Positions 1,905-11,045 of a stretch of DNA of 35,475 bases are shown piece after piece. Location: the NCBI GenBank assembly GCA_938075195.1, contig CALJGK010000057.1, forward strand, positions 1-35,475, written 5' to 3'. Both the position numbers and the translations under genes were made by a program. Under the pieces are notes generated by a model. That model did not search any database, was not told where the DNA came from, and saw only the letters and a list, made by a program, of their open reading frames with translations. How positions within the stretch are numbered: position 1 is the stretch's first letter; every line of letters starts with the position of its first letter. Source of the DNA: an uncultured SAR86 cluster bacterium (GTDB taxonomy: Bacteria; Pseudomonadota; Gammaproteobacteria; Magnimaribacterales; Magnimaribacteraceae).

Positions 1905-3740
1905 ATGTGTGGAATCATAGGTGTTGCGTCAAATAAACCTTCTGTAGACAAGTTACTCATCGGGTTATTGCGTCAAGAATACAGGGGTTACGATTCTGCT
2001 GGCTTAGCCATTTTCGATGAAAAAGAACAAATTCAGGTTTTTAAGAGCACCGGAAAAGTTGCAGAGCTCCAAAATTCAATTGGCTTAAATCCAGTTAATG
2101 GTAATACCGGGATCGCTCATACAAGATGGGCTACGCACGGGCTTCCAACAGAAGCCAACGCTCATCCGCACCACTCTAATAACAAAGTCTTCGTAATTCA
2201 TAATGGAATTATTGAGAACCATCAAGAAATTAGAACCACACTCAAGGCCTTAGGATATGTATTTGAATCAGAAACTGATACAGAGGTTATTGCCCATTTG
2301 ATCCACGCAAAAATGACCGACAGTAATTTGTCTTTGGTTGAATCCTTAAAGGCTGCCGTCAAAGATCTAAGGGGAGCATATGCCATAGGAGCTGTATGTA
2401 AAAGTGAACCAGGCATATTGGCCGCTGCAAGAAAAGGAAGCCCTCTGGTTATAGGTATGGGTTTTGGAGAAAACTTTATTGCCTCGGACCAACTGGCACT
2501 AGCTGATTTTGCAGAAAATTTTGTTTTTTTAGAAGAAGGTGATCTTGCGGAAATTTCAGCAACTGATGTCACATACTGGAATCTTGAAGATAAACAAGTG
2601 GATAGACCGGTAGTTGTTGCTAAATCCCTTGGTGAGACAGTAGATAAGGGTGAGTACCGACATTTCATGTTAAAAGAAATAAACGAACAGCCCGCTAAGA
2701 TTAAAGGGCTTTTGGAGGGTCAGCTGACTGAGTCTGGCGTCCAAGAAGAGATTTTCGGCCCTAACGCACCAGAGATTTTTAAAAATGTAGCAGCTGTTCA
2801 GATCGTCGCTTGTGGTACAAGCTTTCATGCGGGCACCGTAGCAAAATATTGGTTAGAAGGACTTGCAGGCCTGCCCTGTAGCGTTGAAGTAGCCAGTGAA
2901 TTTAGATATAGAAATAAGGTCGTGGCCCCGAATACCTTATTTGTAACCATATCTCAGTCTGGCGAGACGGCAGATACTTTGGCTTGCCTAAGCGCAGCCA
3001 AGGATGCCGGTTACCTTTCACGTCTAGGTATATGTAATGTCCCCTCGAGCTCACTTGCTCGTGAATCAGATTTGGTTTTCTTAACGAAAGCAGGGCCGGA
3101 AATAGGTGTGGCATCCACTAAAGCTTTCACTACTCAACTTGTTGGCTTATTGATGCTCACTCTAATCCTTGGAAGACATCATGGGCTTTCATCTGTAGCC
3201 GAGAACGCGATTAATAATTCATTAAGGGCACTTCCCGATTCTTTGGATGCGGTCATGAAATTAGAAGATCAAATAATAGAAATGGCAGAGGACTTTGATC
3301 AAAAAGAACATGCTCTTTTCTTGGGTCGCGGGATTCATTATCCAGTTGCCATGGAAGGTGCTTTAAAGTTAAAAGAAATATCTTATATTCATGCAGAAGC
3401 TTACCCTGCAGGAGAGCTTAAACATGGCCCATTGGCTTTGGTGGATTCAGAAATGCCTGTTGTGGCCGTAGCTCCAAATGATGATTTATTAGAAAAATTG
3501 CAGTCAAACTTGGAAGAGGTTAGAGCGAGAGGCGGAAAACTTTATGTATTTGGCCATTCAGAAGCACATCATGATGACGAATCCATCACTAAATTTATCG
3601 AACTTCCAGAAGTCCCGGAACTTATTGCTCCACTGATTTATTCTATTCCTCTTCAGCTTCTCGCTTACCATGTAGCAATACTGAAGGGTACAGACATTGA
3701 TCAGCCAAGAAATTTGGCCAAGTCAGTCACAGTTGAATGA
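1905..3740 (+). CDS. glmS: Glutamine-fructose-6-phosphate aminotransferase (isomerizing)
   Basis: GlmS makes glucosamine-6-phosphate from fructose-6-phosphate and glutamine, the first step towards UDP-GlcNAc. The protein begins MCGIIGV, so Cys2 becomes the N-terminal nucleophile of the class II glutamine amidotransferase domain (about residues 1-220). Two SIS sugar-isomerase domains follow, with CGTSFHAG and SQSGETADT in the first. The C-terminus DQPRNLAKSVTVE is canonical. The ATG is 3 nt after glmU. In many bacteria the glmS 3' end is the attTn7 recognition site; here its last 18 bp recur six times downstream. No upstream glmS ribozyme is expected or seen, since the gene abuts glmU. Confidence 0.98.
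   Translation: MCGIIGVASNKPSVDKLLIGLLRQEYRGYDSAGLAIFDEKEQIQVFKSTGKVAELQNSIGLNPVNGNTGIAHTRWATHGLPTEANAHPHHSNNKVFVIHNGIIENHQEIRTTLKALGYVFESETDTEVIAHLIHAKMTDSNLSLVESLKAAVKDLRGAYAIGAVCKSEPGILAAARKGSPLVIGMGFGENFIASDQLALADFAENFVFLEEGDLAEISATDVTYWNLEDKQVDRPVVVAKSLGETVDKGEYRHFMLKEINEQPAKIKGLLEGQLTESGVQEEIFGPNAPEIFKNVAAVQIVACGTSFHAGTVAKYWLEGLAGLPCSVEVASEFRYRNKVVAPNTLFVTISQSGETADTLACLSAAKDAGYLSRLGICNVPSSSLARESDLVFLTKAGPEIGVASTKAFTTQLVGLLMLTLILGRHHGLSSVAENAINNSLRALPDSLDAVMKLEDQIIEMAEDFDQKEHALFLGRGIHYPVAMEGALKLKEISYIHAEAYPAGELKHGPLALVDSEMPVVAVAPNDDLLEKLQSNLEEVRARGGKLYVFGHSEAHHDDESITKFIELPEVPELIAPLIYSIPLQLLAYHVAILKGTDIDQPRNLAKSVTVE
3723..3740 (+). repeat. glmS-terminus core repeat R1 (original site)
   Basis: The sequence tcagtcacagttgaatga is the end of glmS itself, encoding S-V-T-V-E-stop. 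It is the reference copy for the six degenerate downstream copies in the same orientation, and the left boundary of the first cassette. Confidence 0.85.
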
Positions 3741-4086
3741 ATTTGGGTGTTACCCTTTATGGGAAGTTTCTTCTCACTTAGAATTTACAATTACTCTCTC
3801 ATCCAACGATTTAATCCCAGATCGTAAATTCTCCAAGAAACAAGAACTTTTATACCAACTCATCAGGTATCTTCATGAGGAAAAGGGTTTAGGTTATAGG
3901 AAAATCTCATACAAACTCAATTCCTGGGGAATCAAAACTCCAAGAGGTAAGAAGTGGTTCAACACATCAGTTCATTCTGTTTTGAAAAGAAGAAACCAAA
4001 GAAATAATCGTATTGAGAAACAAAGAAATCAAAGATATCCAATTGAGATTGGAACATTAAAACTTAACCACCAACCCATGGATTGA
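3733..4086 (+). CDS. Recombinase-domain-like HTH protein, probably 5'-truncated at the glmS junction
   Basis: The open frame runs out of the glmS 3' end and has no ATG except two codons before its stop, so its start is unclear. The TTG at 3733 is a placeholder giving 117 aa; a TTG at 3697, deeper in glmS, is also in frame. The middle reads LGYRKISYKLNSWGIKTPRG followed by KKWFNTSVHSVLKRR. This resembles the first DNA-binding part of the 'Recombinase' domain of large serine recombinases (LN..GI.TPRG..W....V...L.R). The catalytic resolvase domain with its serine is absent. It may be a fragment cut by the insertion junction or a stand-alone DNA-binding protein. It is the only hint of a recombination gene in the array. 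Confidence 0.5.
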   Translation: MNEFGCYPLWEVSSHLEFTITLSSNDLIPDRKFSKKQELLYQLIRYLHEEKGLGYRKISYKLNSWGIKTPRGKKWFNTSVHSVLKRRNQRNNRIEKQRNQRYPIEIGTLKLNHQPMD

Positions 4087-4096
4087 AAAGATAGAA

Positions 4097-4102
4097 TATA
4101 AT
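4097..4102 (+). promoter_or_regulatory. Candidate -10 box (TATAAT) 6 nt before an ATG
   Basis: A perfect TATAAT is followed by cagaga and then the ATG at 4109, with no Shine-Dalgarno sequence. Transcription from this box would begin at or next to the start codon, giving a leaderless mRNA. I see no convincing -35 element 17 nt upstream. Confidence 0.4.
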
Positions 4103-4108
4103 CAGAGA

Positions 4109-4477
4109 ATGACCATTAAAGATAGTTTTGGATTAGAAACAAATTCAGTTCTCTGGAGATTAAATGTTCTTTTACAAAATGGTTATTCTGTCGATTTAAG
4201 TAACGGTAGGGTTTATTATCGTGAGACTGACTCTTTTGAAGAAGGAGGACCTTATGAATTCGTAAGTTTGATTCATACATTTAAAAGAGAACTAAACTTA
4301 TTCCTGAATCCAGATGGAATGATTGTTCAACAGAGAATGATACCGTTAGGTGAAAAAGATCCTAATGAAATAAGAATTCATGAAGAAGAACATGAGAAAT
4401 TTGTAAAATTCGTTAGTGAATTACCAAAAGTAAGGTTTTACCACAAAATATTTTCTTTCTATCTGAGATTGAGATAG
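4109..4477 (+). CDS. Hypothetical protein (122 aa)
   Basis: I do not recognise a family. The protein is soluble-looking: an N-terminal part (LWRLNVLLQNGYSVDLSNGR), a mixed middle, and an acidic stretch around IRIHEEEHEKF near residue 95, ending in an aromatic and basic tail (FYHKIFSFYLRLR). It has no signal peptide or membrane segment. Its stop codon abuts the ATG of the next gene, so the two are probably co-translated. A TATAAT lies 6 nt before the start. Long open frame, tight packing and + strand collinearity support a real gene. Confidence 0.7.
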   Translation: MTIKDSFGLETNSVLWRLNVLLQNGYSVDLSNGRVYYRETDSFEEGGPYEFVSLIHTFKRELNLFLNPDGMIVQQRMIPLGEKDPNEIRIHEEEHEKFVKFVSELPKVRFYHKIFSFYLRLR

Positions 4478-5338
4478 ATGAGTCTACTGACCAAAATTAA
4501 AACACTTTTTCTAAAGAATAAAGATAAAGAAGTTGTTTCTTCGAGTGAAGATATAAAACCACGATGGGATCAAAACCCTTCTGAGTTAGAAGTAATCCCA
4601 GATGGTGAATATCTTTATTTAGATGAAGAAGAAGAAAGTTTTATTAGACAAAACTACAAGAACGGGAAACTTCATGGACCCTCTTGTTTCCATTATGTTT
4701 CAGGAGAGTTGTGGATAGAAACAAACTTTAAAGACGGATTAGAACACGGAACCTTAACCTACTATGAGAAGGACGGTTCCATTATAAGAACTGAAACTTG
4801 GGAAAATGGTGAGTGTATTTCTACCAACAAACCTGAAAAAACCAATCAACCTGAAAGAAGTGTAAAAAAGAGTTTTAGAGACGATGATTTTGATAAGTTA
4901 ATGTTGTTTGATGAGAATGTTGATGGAGTAGAGTGTTTTGGTTACTTCTTTCATTCCAAAAAATATGACGACTATAGTTTTGGGGTTTATGAAATATATC
5001 TCAGTGATGAATTTAGAACAGAAATTAGTTTAAAACTTAAACCCTCAGAATTTTTAGAACAAGATGTTGATTTAGAACACTTTAAATCATACCTACATAC
5101 TAATATTGAAAAGGGTCAATATGACTTTAGTGAACCGAGAAAGATTTGGGAGAAATACACTTGTAGATATCAATCTAAAGTGGATGAAACCGGTACCTAT
5201 GTACCCAAATACACCGAAGAGGAGTTAACAAAAATAGAACAAGAAGAATATTTAACACCCATAGAATGGACAACACGTTTTTGTAACTGGAAAGAGTTAA
5301 AACAACGTAAGTTTAAAGTTCAGACCTATGATGATTAA
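4478..5338 (+). CDS. MORN-repeat (YwqK-like) protein, 286 aa
   Basis: Residues about 45-105 hold MORN-like units (YKNGKLHG, FKDGLEHG, then a weaker WENGE unit), the pattern found in YwqK-family proteins, often annotated as toxin-antitoxin 'antitoxins', and in other surface or scaffold proteins. The acidic N-terminal stretch includes DEEEES. The C-terminal region, about 130-286, is charged and unrecognised. No signal peptide is visible. The ATG follows the previous stop with no gap, and the gene ends with codons for Asp-Asp-stop just before the next start. The molecular role is unknown; the MORN call itself is fairly safe. Confidence 0.7.
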   Translation: MSLLTKIKTLFLKNKDKEVVSSSEDIKPRWDQNPSELEVIPDGEYLYLDEEEESFIRQNYKNGKLHGPSCFHYVSGELWIETNFKDGLEHGTLTYYEKDGSIIRTETWENGECISTNKPEKTNQPERSVKKSFRDDDFDKLMLFDENVDGVECFGYFFHSKKYDDYSFGVYEIYLSDEFRTEISLKLKPSEFLEQDVDLEHFKSYLHTNIEKGQYDFSEPRKIWEKYTCRYQSKVDETGTYVPKYTEEELTKIEQEEYLTPIEWTTRFCNWKELKQRKFKVQTYDD

Positions 5339-5352
5339 ATTGAGTATGAATA
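5330..5352 (+). repeat. Gene-junction repeat, copy A
   Basis: The 23 bp spanning the Asp-Asp-stop end of one gene and the ATG of the next recur at 7396-7418 with one difference (22 of 23 match). Key parts are gatgattaaat, then gag, then tatgaata. It includes TTAAAT 5 nt before the ATG at 5346, a possible -10 element or coupling signal. Confidence 0.6.
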
Positions 5353-5750
5353 AAATATCGATGTCATTTTTTATCTTTCTATCAATTCTAAGTTTTTCTG
5401 TTTTTTCTGAAACAAAAACACTGTATTTTTCTTGTGATACCTTGTCATTAAGTAAAGACTATATTGAAGTTCAAACATTTCAAAAAGGTGAAAGAATAAG
5501 AGGACTAGAAATTAATCGAAGTAAAGATAAGGTGGTATTCGACGGGAATGAGATGGATTTCGTAGAGGATTACAATAATGACAATATATACGAACTAGGT
5601 ACAAGTGGTACATCTCAATACAGAGACTATGATTTTCATAGGATAACCGGAAGATTGGATGAAAAATTAGTTTATACGGAACCAGACGGAGAAATTATCT
5701 TTACGTATGATTATGAGTATCAATGTTATAAGACCGAACCTTTATTCTAA
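5346..5750 (+). CDS. Hypothetical secreted protein (134 aa)
   Basis: The first 22 residues form a signal peptide: MNK, a hydrophobic core (FFIFLSILSFSVF), and a likely cleavage after FSE or nearby. The mature part has two cysteines, in YFSCD and YQCY, which could form a disulfide in the periplasm. It is rich in Asp, Tyr and Glu. I recognise no family. I chose the ATG at 5346 rather than the ATG at 5328, because 5328 overlaps the upstream gene and puts charged residues before the signal peptide. The junction repeat at 5330-5352 covers this start. Confidence 0.65.
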   Translation: MNKISMSFFIFLSILSFSVFSETKTLYFSCDTLSLSKDYIEVQTFQKGERIRGLEINRSKDKVVFDGNEMDFVEDYNNDNIYELGTSGTSQYRDYDFHRITGRLDEKLVYTEPDGEIIFTYDYEYQCYKTEPLF

Positions 5751-5768
5751 ACTCTCATTACTAAACCT

Positions 5769-5774
5769 GATAAT
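5769..5774 (+). promoter_or_regulatory. Candidate -10 box (GATAAT) 9 nt before an ATG
   Basis: GATAAT inside ctgataatct precedes the ATG at 5784 by 9 nt. The same ten-base string occurs before the next gene at 6084-6093. There is no Shine-Dalgarno sequence and no clear -35 element. Confidence 0.35.
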
Positions 5775-5783
5775 CTAGTTAGT

Positions 5784-6056
5784 ATGAAAAAAATTATTAT
5801 TTCAATAAGTTCTCTTTTTCTTTTAGTTTCATGTTCTATTGAAGACAAAGATGAATTAACTAGTTTTGTAGAATCAAGTAATAGTCAAAAGGATTCAGTC
5901 TGGATGGAACAAGAAGATAGGATTACTTCAGGTGAATGGTACAAAGTATTATTGGTTTTTGGTTGGATAGATGATGGGATTGAATGTGAAAGAATTGTTC
6001 AACAGTACAAGGAAACTTACCCCGAGATAAACTATCGATGTAATCCAGTTAAATAA
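5784..6056 (+). CDS. Small putative lipoprotein (90 aa)
   Basis: The N-terminus MKKIIISISSLFLLVSCSIE is a lipoprotein signal peptide with lipobox LVSC, placing the acyl-modified Cys at residue 17. The mature protein is short and acidic, with two further cysteines (GIECERI and NYRCNP) that may pair. No family recognised. It lies in the + strand run of cassette 1 with a 33-nt gap from the upstream gene that holds the GATAAT box. Confidence 0.7.
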   Translation: MKKIIISISSLFLLVSCSIEDKDELTSFVESSNSQKDSVWMEQEDRITSGEWYKVLLVFGWIDDGIECERIVQQYKETYPEINYRCNPVK

Positions 6057-6085
6057 TATTTTTCGTAATAGTTTTCACTGAATCT

Positions 6086-6091
6086 GATAAT
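6086..6091 (+). promoter_or_regulatory. Candidate -10 box (GATAAT) 8 nt before an ATG
   Basis: GATAAT, again inside ctgataatct, lies 8 nt before the ATG at 6100. TTTCGT at 6061-6066 is at best a weak -35 element. No Shine-Dalgarno sequence is present, as before several genes of this cassette. Confidence 0.35.
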
Positions 6092-6099
6092 CTCAACCT

Positions 6100-7083
6100 A
6101 TGAGTGATAAAGATTACCCCGAAAAACTCAAACTTTTCAAAGAAGAAGGTTCAAGAAACCAAGACTATTATTTCATCATTGTAGATGAACAAGGGGAGAC
6201 ACTATCTACTAAAAAATGGTACCCAATAAGAGAATATGGTTCTTTAGTAATCTCATTATCCTCTCTCTCATTTAATACACACTTTCGACAAGAAGTTGAA
6301 AAATTCCTTACTGTAAAACAGGAAAACACATTAGATAGTCTTGAGTTCATCTCTGGAGAAGGGTTTTTAGAAGAAGGAACAGTTAACTCTAGAGGTACAC
6401 CATCACTTTCAATTTTTGGAAGTTCTCACAAACAAAAAACATTAAGTGTGAACATACGACCAAGAGGAGATGACGGAGAAGAATACTTTACTCTTGGAGG
6501 AATAAGAGGTGATGTAGGTGTGGATATAAATAACGAAGAAGAATTTTTTCTTGAATTCAATTTAACTAACGAAAGATTTAAGGAGTTGAAAGAGATTTGT
6601 TTAGGTGGAGGATTAGAAAGAATTCGTATCAGGACTACTTTAACAAAAGTTAATGGTCTCTATTCTGAGTGGTCAGAATATATAGGAACTGAATTTGGAG
6701 AAATAAAGATTTTTAATAACGACAGAGACATCATAAACAAAGAAGAATTCGATGAAAAATTATTAGAATCCGTTTCAATGAGAAATGGTTTTGGACAAGT
6801 TTTCTCGATAATGACAGAAAAAAAAGTAGGTAACTTTGATCTGACAGAAACAGGATTTGAAAGAGAACAACGTGAAATGGAAGAATTCATTAGTGATCAC
6901 GATGATGATAAAAGTTATGAAGATGATGATCATCATGAAGAGAGTTTAATGAAAGAAAGAATGGAAGAAGTAAGAACAAATCAAGAGAGATTTATAGAAG
7001 AACAAAAACTCTCAACACTAGTGAGTATTTTTTGGGGAATGATAATTCTTGGATCTCTTCTTATATTAACTCTCTGGTTGTAA
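6100..7083 (+). CDS. Hypothetical tail-anchored protein (327 aa)
   Basis: No family recognised. The first 200 residues look like a soluble beta-rich domain (GGIRGDVGVDINNEEEFFLE, then RIRIRTTLTKV). Residues about 265-300 are strongly acidic and His/Asp-rich (SDHDDDKSYEDDDHHEES), followed by a charged helix. A single hydrophobic segment close to the end (SIFWGMIILGSLLILTLWL) would anchor it in the inner membrane with the bulk in the cytoplasm. There is no signal peptide. The Asp/His cluster could bind metal, but that is speculation. Confidence 0.7.
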   Translation: MSDKDYPEKLKLFKEEGSRNQDYYFIIVDEQGETLSTKKWYPIREYGSLVISLSSLSFNTHFRQEVEKFLTVKQENTLDSLEFISGEGFLEEGTVNSRGTPSLSIFGSSHKQKTLSVNIRPRGDDGEEYFTLGGIRGDVGVDINNEEEFFLEFNLTNERFKELKEICLGGGLERIRIRTTLTKVNGLYSEWSEYIGTEFGEIKIFNNDRDIINKEEFDEKLLESVSMRNGFGQVFSIMTEKKVGNFDLTETGFEREQREMEEFISDHDDDKSYEDDDHHEESLMKERMEEVRTNQERFIEEQKLSTLVSIFWGMIILGSLLILTLWL

Positions 7084-7104
7084 CTATACGAATTCAGATT
7101 CTAA

Positions 7105-7404
7105 ATGGAAAAACTAGAAAAAATATTATTAAAGATCAAAGAAGATAATATTGTTTGTCCTGAACCAGGTCGTTGGAGTGTTTTTTACAAAAGAATTGGT
7201 GGGTTTGAAGAAAAAGGTGATGACTATGATCATCGAAGACACTTCCCTCTCATACTCAATGGTTGGTTCCCTTCGAGTAAGGAAGATAAACACAAAAGAT
7301 TTATAGATTCAGTTGACTATTTTTATTCAAAATATCCAAATAAGAGGAATTTCATTGAGAGTTTTTTTGAAAAAAATAATAAATGGTATAGATGGGATGA
7401 TTAA
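7105..7404 (+). CDS. Hypothetical protein (99 aa)
   Basis: A small soluble protein, rich in aromatic and basic residues (RWSVFYKRIGG, RRHFPLILNGWFPS, NNKWYRWDD). No signal or membrane segment, and no family recognised. It ends with Asp-Asp-stop in the second copy of the junction repeat (7396-7418), directly before the next gene, so the two are probably coupled. It follows the 327-aa gene after 21 nt. Confidence 0.6.
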   Translation: MEKLEKILLKIKEDNIVCPEPGRWSVFYKRIGGFEEKGDDYDHRRHFPLILNGWFPSSKEDKHKRFIDSVDYFYSKYPNKRNFIESFFEKNNKWYRWDD

Positions 7405-7418
7405 ATCGAGTATGAATA
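7396..7418 (+). repeat. Gene-junction repeat, copy B
   Basis: This is the second copy of the 23-bp junction at 5330-5352, with 22 of 23 identical. It covers the Asp-Asp-stop of the 99-aa gene and the ATG at 7412, with TTAAAT 5 nt before that ATG. Confidence 0.6.
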
Positions 7419-7684
7419 TGACACTGAATGATTTGTTTATCAAAATAAAAGAATTCTTTATTTCATTGATCAATACTCCTATCCAAGAAATCATTTTATT
7501 TATTGTTGTTATATTTGGTGGTTTATTTCTATTAGTTTATTTTTTTGATAGATTCGATAGATACTTTAGTGGACCAGAAGGAAGTAGAAGATTTTTGAAG
7601 TTTGGAAAATGGTTCCTTATCGTCTTAATAAGTTTTACAATTTTAATTTGGATCTTGGTTGGAATAAGGGAACTATTCTCATGA
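7412..7684 (+). CDS. Small membrane protein (90 aa, two TM segments)
   Basis: Two hydrophobic helices are visible: EIILFIVVIFGGLFLLVYFF and WFLIVLISFTILIWILVGI, joined by a charged loop containing DRYFSGPEGSRR. The N-terminus (MNMTLNDLFIKIKEFF) is amphipathic. No family recognised. The start at 7412 was chosen because it sits at the same place in the junction repeat as the start at 5346; a longer frame upstream overlaps the previous gene. It is the last substantial gene of cassette 1. Confidence 0.6.
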   Translation: MNMTLNDLFIKIKEFFISLINTPIQEIILFIVVIFGGLFLLVYFFDRFDRYFSGPEGSRRFLKFGKWFLIVLISFTILIWILVGIRELFS

Positions 7685-7712
7685 AGAAGAAAACAGTTAC
7701 ACCCAAAAACAA

Positions 7713-7730
7713 TCAGTCACTGTGGAGTAA
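7713..7730 (+). repeat. glmS-terminus core repeat R2
   Basis: tcagtcactgtggagtaa reads S-V-T-V-E-stop in one frame and matches the glmS end at 14 of 18 positions. It contains the small palindrome CAGTcACTG. It is the right boundary of cassette 1. Confidence 0.75.
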
Positions 7731-7760
7731 TTCACAACAGTAAATTAACAGGAGATAATT

Positions 7761-7880
7761 ATGGAAATAAATTTTTACATTTGGTTAATTCTGACGATTG
7801 CGGTGACAGCATATTCTTGGATTTTGATCGCAAAATGGGCAAAGAAAAAAGATACGAAACAACAATCCCTCGAAAACTAA
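7761..7880 (+). CDS. Single-TM small protein (39 aa)
   Basis: A short gene with a good Shine-Dalgarno sequence (aggag at 7750-7754) before the ATG. The product starts MEINFYIWLILTIAVTAYSW: one membrane helix with a basic tail (AKWAKKKDTKQQSLEN) that should face the cytoplasm. No family recognised. It is the only gene of its cassette. The ribosome binding site, helix-plus-basic-tail design and exact fit between the terminal repeats support translation. Confidence 0.6.
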   Translation: MEINFYIWLILTIAVTAYSWILIAKWAKKKDTKQQSLEN

Positions 7881-7898
7881 TTGACTGTTGTAAAACAC

Positions 7899-7916
7899 TC
7901 AGTAACTGTGGAGTGG
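7899..7916 (+). repeat. glmS-terminus core repeat R3
   Basis: tcagtaactgtggagtgg reads S-V-T-V-E-Trp, so the stop codon position has become TGG. It contains the palindrome CAGTaACTG. With R4 it shares flanks on both sides (aaaacac before, a T-rich trinucleotide after). Confidence 0.7.
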
Positions 7917-7925
7917 ATTTGAATC

Positions 7926-8111
7926 GTGATTAAAAAATTAACTCTCAAAAAAATGATGTTTTACCTTAATTTAGGGTGTGTGCTATTTTTAATTGGATAC
8001 GGTATCAACGATTACATTTCCGGTAAATCATTAGGTGGCGATTATTGGGGAACATTAATAATACTAATAGCAATTTTGCCAGGCACGCTGCACATCCAAA
8101 ATAAAGGGTGA
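7926..8111 (+). CDS. Two-TM small membrane protein (61 aa)
   Basis: Two helices are visible: MMFYLNLGCVLFLIGYGI and WGTLIILIAILPGTLHI, separated by a short loop (NDYISGKSLGGDY). The start is taken as GTG 7926, which lies in the left arm of the cassette repeat; ATG 7953 is the alternative and would still keep both helices. No clear Shine-Dalgarno sequence precedes either. No family recognised with confidence. Confidence 0.5.
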   Translation: MIKKLTLKKMMFYLNLGCVLFLIGYGINDYISGKSLGGDYWGTLIILIAILPGTLHIQNKG

Positions 8112-8135
8112 AATTAAATCACTGCTCGAAAACAC

Positions 8136-8153
8136 CCAGTAACAGTAGAGTGG
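8136..8153 (+). repeat. glmS-terminus core repeat R4
   Basis: ccagtaacagtagagtgg reads P-V-T-V-E-Trp. It is the closest relative of R3 and lies 31 nt before the start of the amine oxidase gene. Confidence 0.65.
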
Positions 8154-8173
8154 TTTATAGTCATTATTCAGTT

Positions 8174-8178
8174 GGAGG
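8174..8178 (+). promoter_or_regulatory. Shine-Dalgarno sequence that selects an ATT start
   Basis: GGAGG is followed by six T residues and then ATT at 8185 in the reading frame of the amine oxidase. No ATG, GTG or TTG lies in frame at a suitable distance, so this site decides the start. Confidence 0.65.
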
Positions 8179-8184
8179 TTTTTT

Positions 8185-9600
8185 ATTAAGATTTTTATAA
8201 AAGTTCTATTTGCATATATTTTGCTGCAACCTTTTTATGCTTTTTCTGAAAGCGAAGGCTTAAAAATACTGGTTGTTGGAGCAGGAATATCAGGACTGGG
8301 CGTGGCAAGAGATTTACAAGACTCAGGTTATAAAGTAACTGTTCTTGAGGCTAGAAATAAAATTGGTGGAAGAATAGACACAGACAGATCTTTAGGATTT
8401 CCATTGGAAAGAGGAGCAAACTGGATTCATAGCAATCAGGTAGAGGGCAATTTACTCATGTCTCTGAAAGATGAGTTGGGCTTAAAAACAAATATCAGCA
8501 CATTAGATACATCGGACTTCAAATTATTCAACAAAGAAGGAAAAGTCGTAACATTATCAGAAGAGGACATTGAAAAAATTGAATTCAGGGTAGGGCTTGC
8601 TGCTTACATTGCTTCATACGTCAAGCCATCTTCGACTTTAGGGGATGTTATAGGTTTATTAAAAAGCCTGGGCTTATTATCATTTGCTCCAGATGTTGTT
8701 CTTAAGGCATTTCTCCAGCAGCTAGAGTTAGGAGCCGCAGAAGATGAAGAAAATATACCTGTTAGTGCTTTAATATCTGAATACGCATACATGGAGGATG
8801 CTGGAGATGATGAAGAGGTTTTCGGCGGCTTTGATCAATTTACCAATCATTTATCTAAGGGCCTTGATATAAAGCTGAACAGCCCTGTTTCTAAAATTAA
8901 TTATTTATCTGACAAGATAGAGGTTTTTGCAAATGACAAAGCCTATATGGCTGATGTAGTGGTTATAAGTGTTTCTCTTGGCGTTTTACAAAAAAACCTT
9001 ATTGAGTTTATCCCTGATTTGCCGGTGGAAAAGAAGGAAGCCATTAATAGCATAAGCTGGGGAAGCGTAAATAAAGTTATATTTAAATTTCCATATAACT
9101 TCTGGGGCAATGTGGAAAACTTTTTTATAGAGAGGGAGGACAGGCATGCCTTCACCACCTGGTTTAGCAGTGAGGTAATGGTAAATGAGCCAGTAGTTTA
9201 TTCTTTCTTTTCTGGAGAGTTCTCAAGAAATATGGAAAAAGAAACAGATGATTATATTCTAGAAGAGGCTATGAAATCGTTAAAAGTAGCTTATGGTAAT
9301 GATATTCCTGAACCAGAAGCACATTTAATTTCGCGGTGGGGAATGGAGCCATACATACTAGGATCTTACTCGGCTCCTGGGCACAATCAAGACGACTTAA
9401 AATTGCGAACCGAATTAGCCAGCCCAGTTCAAAATAAAATATTTTTTGCCGGCGAGGCAACAAGCGTCCTAGAGTATGCCTTTACTCATGGTGCTTTAAA
9501 CACAGGGCTAAGAGAAGCCAAAAAAATTAAAGAATTGTATCCATTGGACCAACAGTCTTACCCAGTAACGGCTATAAACAACTCCGTAACCGTGAAGTAA
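8185..9600 (+). CDS. Exported flavin-containing amine oxidase, ATT start
   Basis: A FAD-dependent amine oxidase of the polyamine oxidase / LSD1-like family, expected to oxidise an amine to an aldehyde with H2O2. The dinucleotide motif VVGAGISGLGVARDL and the following LEARNKIGGRIDT are present, as is the C-terminal FAD motif FAGEATSVLEYAFTHGALN. With the ATT at 8185 as start (471 aa) the N-terminus becomes a good signal peptide: KIFIKVLFAYILLQPFYAF. Starting at TTG 8221 would cut the signal in half and lose the GGAGG site. The last residues (AINNSVTVK) are encoded by the array repeat. The substrate is unknown. Confidence 0.85.
   Translation: MKIFIKVLFAYILLQPFYAFSESEGLKILVVGAGISGLGVARDLQDSGYKVTVLEARNKIGGRIDTDRSLGFPLERGANWIHSNQVEGNLLMSLKDELGLKTNISTLDTSDFKLFNKEGKVVTLSEEDIEKIEFRVGLAAYIASYVKPSSTLGDVIGLLKSLGLLSFAPDVVLKAFLQQLELGAAEDEENIPVSALISEYAYMEDAGDDEEVFGGFDQFTNHLSKGLDIKLNSPVSKINYLSDKIEVFANDKAYMADVVVISVSLGVLQKNLIEFIPDLPVEKKEAINSISWGSVNKVIFKFPYNFWGNVENFFIEREDRHAFTTWFSSEVMVNEPVVYSFFSGEFSRNMEKETDDYILEEAMKSLKVAYGNDIPEPEAHLISRWGMEPYILGSYSAPGHNQDDLKLRTELASPVQNKIFFAGEATSVLEYAFTHGALNTGLREAKKIKELYPLDQQSYPVTAINNSVTVK
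9583..9600 (+). repeat. glmS-terminus core repeat R5
   Basis: tccgtaaccgtgaagtaa reads S-V-T-V-K-stop and forms the end of the amine oxidase gene in the same reading phase that glmS uses. A partial extra unit, P-V-T-A, lies 21 nt upstream (9562-9573). Confidence 0.7.
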
Positions 9601-9706
9601 TTCCTCAGCTCATTATTTCTTAAAACGCTATAAATAAAGGGTTGTGATTTCTATTTATTCTGAGATTATAGTAAATTAAATTAAATTCATTTTTCAGGGA
9701 AAGATT

Positions 9707-10087
9707 ATGATAAAAAAAGAATCCTTTTTTTTAGTATTTGTAGCTATTGGTGTATTTTCTGTTTCTTTGGGATACGGATTTTTACCAAGCCTTACAATGC
9801 CTTTTTTGTACGATATAGAAGTAACTAATACAAATTTATTAAATATTTTAAGAGCAATTTCAGGTTTATATATAGCCTTAGTAATTTTTTGGATATCAGG
9901 TGCATATAACTCTAATCTCCAATTACCTGCCCTATGGAGTTTAACAATCTTCATGGCCGGAATAGCCTCAGGAAGGGTTGCAAGCATCTTAATTGACGGT
10001 TTACCTAGTCCAATCTTTATTTTTTATCTATTTACAGAAATTATTTTCGGCTTAATAGGTTACGCGCTTTTGAAGAGGAAATTATGA
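9707..10087 (+). CDS. DUF4345-like membrane protein (126 aa)
   Basis: Four hydrophobic segments are visible. The layout matches my knowledge of the DUF4345 family: an N-terminal helix with GYGFLPSLTMP, a middle LRAISGLYIALVIFWISGA, then GRVASILIDGLPSPIFIFY with the conserved Arg and Asp-Gly-x-Pro. Function in the family is unknown. A ggga Shine-Dalgarno sequence sits upstream of the ATG. It is followed 64 nt later by a small ferredoxin-fold gene. Confidence 0.7.
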   Translation: MIKKESFFLVFVAIGVFSVSLGYGFLPSLTMPFLYDIEVTNTNLLNILRAISGLYIALVIFWISGAYNSNLQLPALWSLTIFMAGIASGRVASILIDGLPSPIFIFYLFTEIIFGLIGYALLKRKL

Positions 10088-10151
10088 AGCTTCTATTTAA
10101 TCAGCATCAGTAAAATGGCTCACAATAGAAAATTAAAAAGGAGAAGATATA

Positions 10152-10421
10152 ATGCTAATAGCAATAAGAGCAGAAGTAGAAAGTGTTGATCATTGGAGAG
10201 AAAAATTTAAAACACATGCAGATTTATTTAAGAGCCAGGGTGTGTCTTTTGCTTATATGGGCGCAGCAAATGATAAAACAGTAATTTCTGTTTTTGAAAC
10301 TAACAATCCTGACGAGTTCGTAAGAATATTTAATGATCCTGCAACAGCGGAAGCAATGTCACAAGATAAAATAACAGGCGGTGTTGAGATGTTTCTTCTA
10401 GATGAGATATTCAAATTATAA
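10152..10421 (+). CDS. Small alpha/beta-barrel protein (ABM / DUF3764-like), 89 aa
   Basis: The pattern MLIAIRAEVESVDHWREKF, then AYMGAANDKTVISVFETNNPDEFVRIFNDPATAEAM in short strands and helices, is that of dimeric ferredoxin-fold proteins such as antibiotic-biosynthesis monooxygenases and DUF3764. No catalytic residue can be assigned. The gene has a strong Shine-Dalgarno sequence (aaggaga) ending 8 nt before the ATG. The family-level call is moderate and the function unknown. Confidence 0.6.
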   Translation: MLIAIRAEVESVDHWREKFKTHADLFKSQGVSFAYMGAANDKTVISVFETNNPDEFVRIFNDPATAEAMSQDKITGGVEMFLLDEIFKL

Positions 10422-10444
10422 ATTCTTGGTTGGGCTAAGTATCC

Positions 10445-10462
10445 TCTGTTACGGGAGAGTAG
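10445..10462 (+). repeat. glmS-terminus core repeat R6 (diverged)
   Basis: tctgttacgggagagtag reads S-V-T-G-E-stop. It matches the consensus tcagtaactgtggagtaa at 12 of 18 positions. It is accepted because of its orientation, coding phase and spacing to a weak inverted-repeat arm, but chance cannot be excluded. Confidence 0.45.
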
Positions 10463-10503
10463 AAAATTTGGCCTAATATTCTTATTGGAATTGGGAGAAA
10501 CTA

Positions 10504-10905
10504 ATGGAAAAAACTTTTATCACTATTGGAAGAGGATTGCTCGGCCTTTATTTCTTGTATCCAGGCATCACAAAAATACCAAGTTATGGTTTTATGGTTG
10601 AATATATGACCCTTCACAACATACCTTTTGTAACCATTCTCTTACCAATAACAATTCTATTGCAGGTTGTTTTGGGGTTAATGCTCGTCACAGGTTATCG
10701 CATAAAAGAGTCTGCCGTAATTCTTGCTGTCTTAACCCTCTTTATAAACTTTGGGATGCATGATTTCTGGAATCAGTACCCAAATACAGATGCGGGACAT
10801 GAATTACAAAACTTTGTTAAAAATTTAGGAATTTTTGCTGGATTGCTTGTGCTGAGTGCAAGTAGCAATGTCCAGCAATGGAAGCTTTTTAATAAATCTC
10901 TTTAG
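10504..10905 (+). CDS. DoxX family membrane protein (133 aa)
   Basis: A four-helix membrane protein of the DoxX type: GRGLLGLYFLYPGITKIPSY at the start is the family signature (helix with G..F...G..K), followed by LPITILLQVVLGLMLVTGY and the HDFWNQYP loop with His and Trp, then a last helix GIFAGLLVLSAS. Members are linked to quinone or thiol redox chemistry, but most are uncharacterised. A gggaga Shine-Dalgarno sequence precedes the ATG. Confidence 0.8.
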   Translation: MEKTFITIGRGLLGLYFLYPGITKIPSYGFMVEYMTLHNIPFVTILLPITILLQVVLGLMLVTGYRIKESAVILAVLTLFINFGMHDFWNQYPNTDAGHELQNFVKNLGIFAGLLVLSASSNVQQWKLFNKSL

Positions 10906-11027
10906 TGAATTAATAATCACAGAATAGTTTAAAGAAAAGGGATTTAGAAAGAGAGTGGGTAAATGAGAGTCTGGCTTGCTCTACATACAAAATAAATCAT
11001 AAGATTTAATTCTCTATTTTGTTAAAG

Positions 11028-11045
11028 TCAGTGGCTGTAGAATAA
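11028..11045 (+). repeat. glmS-terminus core repeat R7 (distal end)
   Basis: tcagtggctgtagaataa, preceded by aag, reads K-S-V-A-V-E-stop and matches the glmS end at 16 of 21 positions including the aag. It is not the end of any gene. It shares the preceding aag with glmS itself rather than with R2-R4, as expected if it is the displaced original end of the target. Confidence 0.65.

Follow-up and report, generated by a model that had tools for sequence, protein, structure and literature searches.

Described integration systems and the glmS locus of SAR86

Staphylococcal and enterococcal cassette chromosome elements (SCC and ECC) are inserted at the 3′ region of rlmH by large serine recombinases (CcrAB). 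Their att sites are direct repeats with a short central motif, and the attachment site of the circle displays inverted repeats with dyad symmetry (PMC6222049). In islands of the Methylophilaceae, the final 20 nt of a tRNA have been reported to recur in several copies (PMC10872708), and additive flexible genomic islands occur in Alteromonas as well (PMC4119200).

The window analysed here, a stretch of 35,475 nucleotides from an uncultured SAR86 cluster bacterium, contains glmS followed by 18-bp copies of the glmS end (cores) that separate a series of small cassettes. SAR86 bacteria are among the most abundant of the surface ocean and have small genomes. A large serine recombinase is the most likely agent moving the cassettes stacked behind glmS. 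SCC-like integration at glmS, in which an enzyme supplied in trans stacks recombinase-free cassettes in the manner of an integron, would very probably account for the locus.

As in SCC/ECC, the 3′ end of a conserved gene is the target, and the att sites of the SAR86 arrays are direct repeats accompanied by inverted repeats (arms) with dyad symmetry. One complete SAR86 element, in genome G155, encodes a large serine recombinase. Unlike in SCC/ECC, the target is not rlmH but glmS in all 120 loci, each of which ends with SVTVE-stop, and the hosts are Gammaproteobacteria. The 332 mobile cassettes delimited by cores have a median size of 610 bp, compared with tens of kb for SCC; most of them, including those in the window, lack a recombinase, and a locus contains up to nine internal cores, with dozens of arm types surrounding one shared core. 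The SAR86 stack resembles an integron in its small, co-oriented cassettes, mostly with one gene each, beside a fixed site, and also in the position of the presumably newest cassette nearest to that site, the shuffling from strain to strain and the cassettes devoid of their own enzyme. However, PF00589 is represented by just two proteins, both of XerC/XerD length, in the genome of the window and in most complete relatives, which thus have no IntI. Moreover, the SAR86 site is a double-strand dyad with a 2-bp AC exchange, in contrast to the folded attC of integrons (RYYYAAC/GTTRRRY), and it is the end of an essential gene, restored at each insertion, that serves as the fixed site. Marine flexible islands and tycheposons likewise add cassettes at one chromosomal target whose 3′ end is regenerated, but their targets are tRNA genes, their cassettes are much larger and an integrase or an XerD-type tyrosine recombinase has been reported from some of these islands. 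The open-licence literature yielded no paper that connects SAR86 with insertion at glmS, none that treats serine recombinases together with genomic islands in SAR86, and nothing relevant on SAR86 with tycheposons or flexible islands.

Cores and cassettes in the window and in other SAR86 genomes

The features of the window are as follows (scores are those of a core matrix trained on the glmS loci of SAR86).

1905-3740, +, glmS ORF; the last codons (S-V-T-V-E-stop) are the predicted chromosomal attachment site
3723-3740, +, core 1, the current glmS end (attL); score 20.7; central AC at 3729-3730
3730-7719, +, cassette 1, 3990 bp; 14/18 pairing between arms 3741-3758 and 7691-7708
3742-4086, +, first gene of cassette 1, stand-alone recombinase-domain mini protein (PF07508 / phrog_95)
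7713-7730, +, core 2; score 28.7
7720-7905, +, cassette 2, 186 bp, with a single small ORF; 15/18 pairing between arms 7731-7748 and 7877-7894
7899-7916, +, core 3; score 25.0
7906-8142, +, cassette 3, 237 bp; 12/18 pairing between arms 7917-7934 and 8114-8131
8136-8153, +, core 4; score 15.1
8143-9589, +, cassette 4, 1447 bp; 13/18 pairing between arms 8154-8171 and 9561-9578
8221-9600, +, flavin amine oxidase gene of cassette 4
9583-9600, +, core 5, formed by the final codons of the amine-oxidase gene (NNSVTVK-stop); score 17.7
9590-10451, +, segment 5, 862 bp; arms unmatched (2/18)
10445-10462, +, core 6, flanks without matching arms; score 19.0
10452-11034, +, segment 6, 583 bp; arms unmatched (6/18)
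10504-10905, +, DoxX-like gene in segment 6
11028-11045, +, core 7, closing the array distally; score 17.3

All seven same-strand (+) 18-bp copies of the glmS end reported in the first-pass annotation were recovered at their positions, with segments of 186-3990 bp and genes on the + strand between them. The copy at 10445 is not the weakest, as had been thought; the matrix places that at 8136 lowest. The scores of the seven cores, 15.1-28.7, compare with a nearly empty reverse-strand control of 1.40 Mb (one match of 25.0, two near 12-13 and none of the rest above 11), so that all seven lie beyond chance. A plain consensus with three mismatches was useless as a test within the window (11 matches observed vs 9.9 expected, not significant). 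In the entire 1.39-Mb genome, four exact matches and a single one-mismatch match were obtained, all in the array and on one strand. An Rfam search of the window returned no match.

The glmS genes of relatives are 90-94% identical to that of the window. In the related genome G017, cassette 1 is missing and glmS is joined straight to cassette 2, which is also present in G016 and G032; the right part of core 2 and the G017 glmS end have the same sequence. A homologue of the amine-oxidase cassette in G023 (locus L052) also has a core at its end, with another right neighbour. At the distal end, core 7 has GC rather than AC at its centre, and G032 (locus L053) contains a degenerate core at the equivalent position. 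Segment 5 is probably a composite or has an eroded boundary.

Further core copies are present in 107 of the 120 SAR86 glmS loci, and the matrix finds 316 forward vs 2 reverse matches in 1.40 Mb; outside SAR86, in Gammaproteobacteria, the stringent core normally occurs once. Among array ORFs of at least 100 aa, 317 of 369 are on the + strand. The cargo comprises restriction, nuclease and other defence-like genes together with unknown one-gene cassettes. Most of the genomes compared are draft single-cell or metagenome assemblies. Comparisons of occupied and empty sites numbered 49, the window vs G017 among them, and demonstrate that the boundaries vary among relatives; nor is core-like sequence equally dense elsewhere, be it in the same genome, on the SAR86 reverse strand or in other Gammaproteobacteria. 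Invariant boundaries and equal density, which the first-pass annotation had set beforehand as grounds for abandoning its reading, thus failed to appear. Cassettes are 94-100% identical where the DNA identity of glmS is just 57-64%, and in one case the same cassette occurs in two families with 100% identity. These near-identical copies in different families suggest that the cassettes spread horizontally.

Exchange point, arms and recombinase

Each internal core is a junction in which the left third comes from the left neighbour and the right part from the right neighbour. Sites that share the right flank have core positions -10 to -1 in common but not -16/-13, whereas those that share the left flank have -16/-13 in common but not -10 to -1; exchange therefore occurs inside a 4-bp interval around AC. 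The wobble positions -13 and -10, one base to each side of AC, vary freely, as would be expected for a 2-bp overlap. The crossover mapping agrees with the earlier proposal of repeated site-specific insertion that restores the gene end each time.

The arms are centred exactly on the AC of the shared core, TCNGTNACNGTGGARTAR, and lie about 12-29 bp to each side of it. Their sequence differs between cassettes and agrees within one cassette: the identity of a cassette's own pair is 0.602 vs 0.375 for shuffled pairs at offset 0, and 0.26-0.33 at every other offset. With one cassette per family, such pairing was reached in 0 of 20,000 permutations. Arms match better in glmS-proximal (0.667) than in distal cassettes (0.571), in keeping with an order of insertion that places the newest cassettes beside glmS. 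About half of the cassettes, segments 5 and 6 of the window included, have no matched arms at 12/18, which is assumed to be due to erosion or fusion. The CAGTnACTG palindrome noticed earlier exists in some cores only; the relevant symmetry is the larger one of the inverted repeats around AC. Mapping from sequence placed the exchange at a central dinucleotide with a dyad half-site on either side, the mark of large serine integrases, and the geometry of the cassette ends is that of serine-integrase attP sites.

A dedicated recombinase was found neither in the window nor in its genome, and the genome contains no resolvase. The mini protein of cassette 1 lacks the catalytic domain; such stand-alone recombinase-domain proteins at cassette ends may have a role in arm selection. 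An integrase gene near glmS or a core was not found in this genome; one relative, G155, has such a gene inside the cassette at glmS. The first cassette of the G155 array is a 6-kb autonomous element that encodes a large serine recombinase of 551 aa (PF00239, 6e-24; PF07508, 1e-11; a Zn ribbon; phrog_95, 3e-78), only distant kin of known phage and plasmid integrases. Between the end of the gene and that of the cassette's closing core lie 43 bp. The arms of the element match each other and, as GGASTAAGTTTARTCGGTCTTTC, flank the core in the predicted circle junction (attP); three enzyme-free cassettes elsewhere have the same arms. This recombinase is present in only 1 of 203 SAR86 genomes, and for dozens of other arm families no enzyme is known. 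Other SAR86 large serine recombinases were dismissed as array enzymes: those of G031 and G034 have no core nearby and that of G034 adjoins a tRNA gene, so that they belong to other elements. IMG/VR contains no matches to the G155 recombinase or to three arm patterns, phage records contain nothing resembling the element at the DNA level, and neither source yielded a circular form or a carrier of the cassettes. A phage origin was rejected, as the four exact-core matches from IMG/VR are in unrelated sequence, within structural genes wherever these could be read, and no array accompanies them.

In the proposed mechanism, a circular cassette would carry attP, consisting of an SVTVE-like core and inverted arms of about 17 bp with the dyad centred on AC. 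A large serine recombinase would catalyse the exchange between this attP and the glmS end, which acts as attB, with AC as the 2-bp overlap. In this way the cassette would land directly behind glmS and provide its new last codons, while the old codons would be pushed to the far end of the cassette and stay there as the next core. Repeated rounds would create a stack, mostly in glmS orientation, with the newest cassette beside glmS. As most cassettes have no recombinase, rarer autonomous elements, for example that of G155, would supply the enzyme that moves them in trans. Recombinases of the same class presumably act on all arm families, and the cassettes may be co-transcribed with glmS.

Alternative mechanisms and the meaning of the locus

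Small co-oriented one-gene cassettes look integron-like, XerC and XerD are universal and some genomes contain a few phage-type integrases. Insertion by a tyrosine recombinase, be it an integron integrase, XerCD or a phage or satellite integrase as in tycheposons, is nevertheless unlikely. The two PF00589 proteins of XerC/XerD length found in most genomes led to rejection of IntI and XerCD, no tyrosine recombinase gene was seen in the arrays, and an identical overlap of 6-8 bp would forbid the free variation at -13/-10 with clean left/right segregation. Casposons combine variable terminal inverted repeats with target-derived direct repeats at the 3′ end of a gene, a pattern that the arrays share. 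Duplication of an approximately 18-bp target by a transposase or a Cas1-like enzyme would, however, yield equal full-length copies, whereas the observed core is split at AC between neighbours, with precisely this point as the centre of the inverted repeats; contradicted by the crossover mapping, this explanation is very improbable.

Tn7 uses the same glmS end, which is recognised by TnsD, and decayed Tn7-like transposons at attTn7 might have left the cassettes behind. Tn7 inserts about 25 bp past the stop codon and is not known to carry a copy of its target, whereas exchange in SAR86 falls inside the coding end and the element carries that end. In agreement with the first-pass annotation, no tns gene was seen among the array genes examined; a TniQ search without a match in 41 genomes is uninformative since control genomes were equally negative. 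Decayed Tn7-like elements are very improbable. The draft state of most genomes would favour an assembly artefact, or short homologies shuffled by homologous recombination, over any dedicated system. Yet the same pattern is seen in complete one-contig and independent genomes of four families, and exchange by homology does not explain dyad arms in exact register, which leaves this explanation with a negligible probability. On the strength of sequence comparison, insertion by a large serine recombinase remains the preferred reading. That the locus represents a distinct integration system had rightly been flagged as inference and is now well supported for SAR86.

Stated with more reserve, the locus may well be a serine-recombinase counterpart of the integron, in which a conserved gene end receives tiny recombinase-free cassettes, order-wide, through rare enzymes acting in trans. 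The large cassette pool so viewed would combine a single shared core with dozens of att-arm types, and its members would be captured, stacked and exchanged. The arrays supply over 300 natural att sites, in which a single core occurs with numerous arm types, and are a resource on how large serine recombinases read their sites. If the proposed mechanism is true, a serine recombinase together with an essential gene whose end is restored each time can give rise to integron-style stacking. As each insertion would rebuild the glmS end and leave a copy behind, SAR86 cells would carry an integron-like stack of swappable genes, and this gene-capture locus, in nearly every SAR86 genome, would be a main route of gene exchange for these streamlined cells.

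Core copies at the glmS end

The seven 18-bp copies of the last glmS codons (S-V-T-V-E-stop; the core) that the first-pass annotation placed at 3723 to 11028, all on the + strand, were confirmed at their positions. Within the window a loose core consensus was not significant; with a matrix derived from SAR86 glmS ends the seven cores score 15.1-28.7, and the reverse-strand control (1.40 Mb, same matrix) yielded one match above 13. Core-like sequences at equal density elsewhere, which would have spoken against the first-pass reading, did not appear in the source genome (1.39 Mb, 67 contigs), in which matches with zero or one mismatch (four exact, one with a single mismatch) all lie inside the array.

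glmS loci were gathered across the order, about 12-19 kb downstream being read where the contig was long enough, which gave 120 usable loci, the window included; those close relatives that carry a name belong to the SAR86 cluster, and many of their genomes are single-cell assemblies. SVTVE-stop terminates glmS in 120/120 loci, core matches downstream number 316 forward versus 2 reverse, and at least one internal core copy, at most nine, occurs in 107 loci. A stringent-core search covered four SAR86 genomes and 272 genomes of Gammaproteobacteria from outside SAR86. The 272 usually contain a single match, rare second ones being far off or on different contigs, and no core array was seen in them. 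Another contig of the SAR86 genome G120 (C14, L224, position 166) carries a further, distinct glmS end at which an array starts, possibly through a mixed genome bin.

Cassette mobility and the point of exchange

The 332 closed cassettes between successive cores have a median size of 610 bp (middle half 439-1206, largest 7816), and 317 of their 369 ORFs of at least 100 aa are co-oriented with glmS. The predicted presence/absence variation at core boundaries among related genomes was found in 49 comparisons of occupied and empty sites. Among these is that of the window with G017, where window cassette 2 (96% identical) directly follows glmS, whereas in the window cassette 1 intervenes. Frequent cassettes adjoin many different left neighbours. 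Cassettes of 94-100% identity are shared by families between which the DNA identity of the glmS 3' part is 57-64%, and judged by these identities their transfer is horizontal and recent; window cassette 2 also occurs, 95% identical, in G032, from a different family.

Wobble positions within the core served as markers for mapping the crossover. In site pairs with the same right flank and differing left flanks, positions -10, -7, -4 and -1 are shared above background and -16 and -13 are not; with the left flank the same and the right differing, -16 and -13 are shared and -10 to -1 are not. This split, which holds at stricter thresholds and per family, places the exchange between -13 and -10, bracketing the conserved AC of TCNGTN-AC-NGTGGARTAR. 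An 18-bp target duplication does not fit this segregation. Repeated insertion with restoration of the gene end, as proposed in the first pass, agrees with the mapping: the old glmS end would be displaced downstream and the new last codons would come from the incoming element.

Dyad arms and the probable recombinase

Each cassette begins with the reverse complement of its own terminal sequence. At positions 12-29 from the AC centre, identity between these arms is 0.602 versus 0.375 with shuffled partners, and at all other offsets it is 0.26-0.33. When each family was represented by one cassette, the identity between own arms was reached in 0/20,000 permutations. Arm sequences vary by type (GTTTGAACAGAGAATTA, TTCACAACAGTAAATTA, TCTTGAGTGCAGAATT and others). 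Arm match is 0.667 in glmS-adjacent and 0.571 in distal cassettes, as expected if insertion occurs at glmS and older units decay.

Arms of the window units, numbered outward from glmS
Cassette 1: 14/18 matched; also recovered by an independent repeat search (I21)
Cassette 2: 15/18 matched
Cassette 3: 12/18 matched
Cassette 4: 13/18 matched
Segments 5 and 6: no match between own two ends

The search for an integrase in the rest of the source genome, envisaged in the first pass, turned up no resolvase and, of PF00589 proteins, only two, both of XerC/XerD length. A complete element is the first cassette behind glmS (0-6047) in the SAR86 genome G155. Besides a short N-terminal ORF and small genes, it contains the genes of a Rep carrying the REP_ORF2-G2P domain and of a large serine recombinase of 551 aa. 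The recombinase gene ends 43 bp short of the next core's end, and its product is distantly related to phage integrases and to the SPbeta, TP901-1 and PhiC31 structures. GGASTAAGTTTARTCGGTCTTTC flanks the core at both ends of the element, and arms of this type occur on three recombinase-free cassettes in other genomes. The recombinase is rare (1/203 genomes). A large serine recombinase is the probable enzyme, directly supported by one example, G155; for the remaining arm types the 2-bp exchange and the dyad geometry point to it. Given its gene for a G2P-type replication protein (L170, 445-906 bp past glmS), this autonomous element may replicate by rolling circle, either as a small plasmid or in a form like that of a filamentous phage. 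Unrelated large serine recombinases in G034 (C2, L215; adjoining a tRNA gene) and G031 (C1, L217), of 525 and 526 aa, are probably part of separate integrative elements.

Window cassette 1 opens with an ORF (3742-4086) for the serine-integrase recombinase domain alone (PF07508), without the catalytic domain. By coordinate comparison, 18 of the 23 PF07508 matches in the order lie inside glmS arrays. For most of these ORFs the distance between the start and a core is about 33-39 bp; some ORFs stand inverted at the cassette's far end, reading inward. The mini protein also occurs in G018, G123, G173, G092, G126, G057, G059, G007, G104, G102, G151, G056, G116 and G198. Window-type copies often have no conventional start codon, and reading may begin within the core or arm. 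The structure predicted for the mini protein consists of three helices, with a pLDDT at or above about 90 across the helical core; several of its top structural matches, with weak E-values, are to this domain in the SPbeta, Bxb1 and 4kis serine integrases.

Cargo and relation to known systems

Among 128 representative cassette proteins are HNH nucleases, NucS, restriction and methylation proteins of types I, II and IV, the candidate defence proteins MADS and PDC, an amine oxidase and many unknowns. One glmS cassette (L040, 0-5286 from the glmS stop) holds entire type I restriction-modification genes between matched arms GTTCTACAGAGGGG. Where a cassette reading frame continues into the core, the protein ends in S-V-T-V-E or S-V-T-V-K (L045 222-626 and L051 3176-3616 from the glmS stop; window 8221-9600), as if the core served also as the last codons of some cassette proteins. 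Several cassettes start, right behind the core, with a terminator-like hairpin (CCGCATTCTGCGGGGG-TTTT; from the glmS stop, L056 663-2416, L058 601-1565, L052 1128, 3343 and 8646), at which glmS transcripts would be halted.

The array resembles staphylococcal and enterococcal cassette chromosome elements (SCC/ECC) in function and geometry, and integrons in stacking, but does not share all the features that define either; additive islands with repeated tRNA ends are the closest marine precedent. From sequence comparison, the source of all the evidence here, we infer that cassettes would pass through circular intermediates, be mobilised in trans and be transcribed from glmS.
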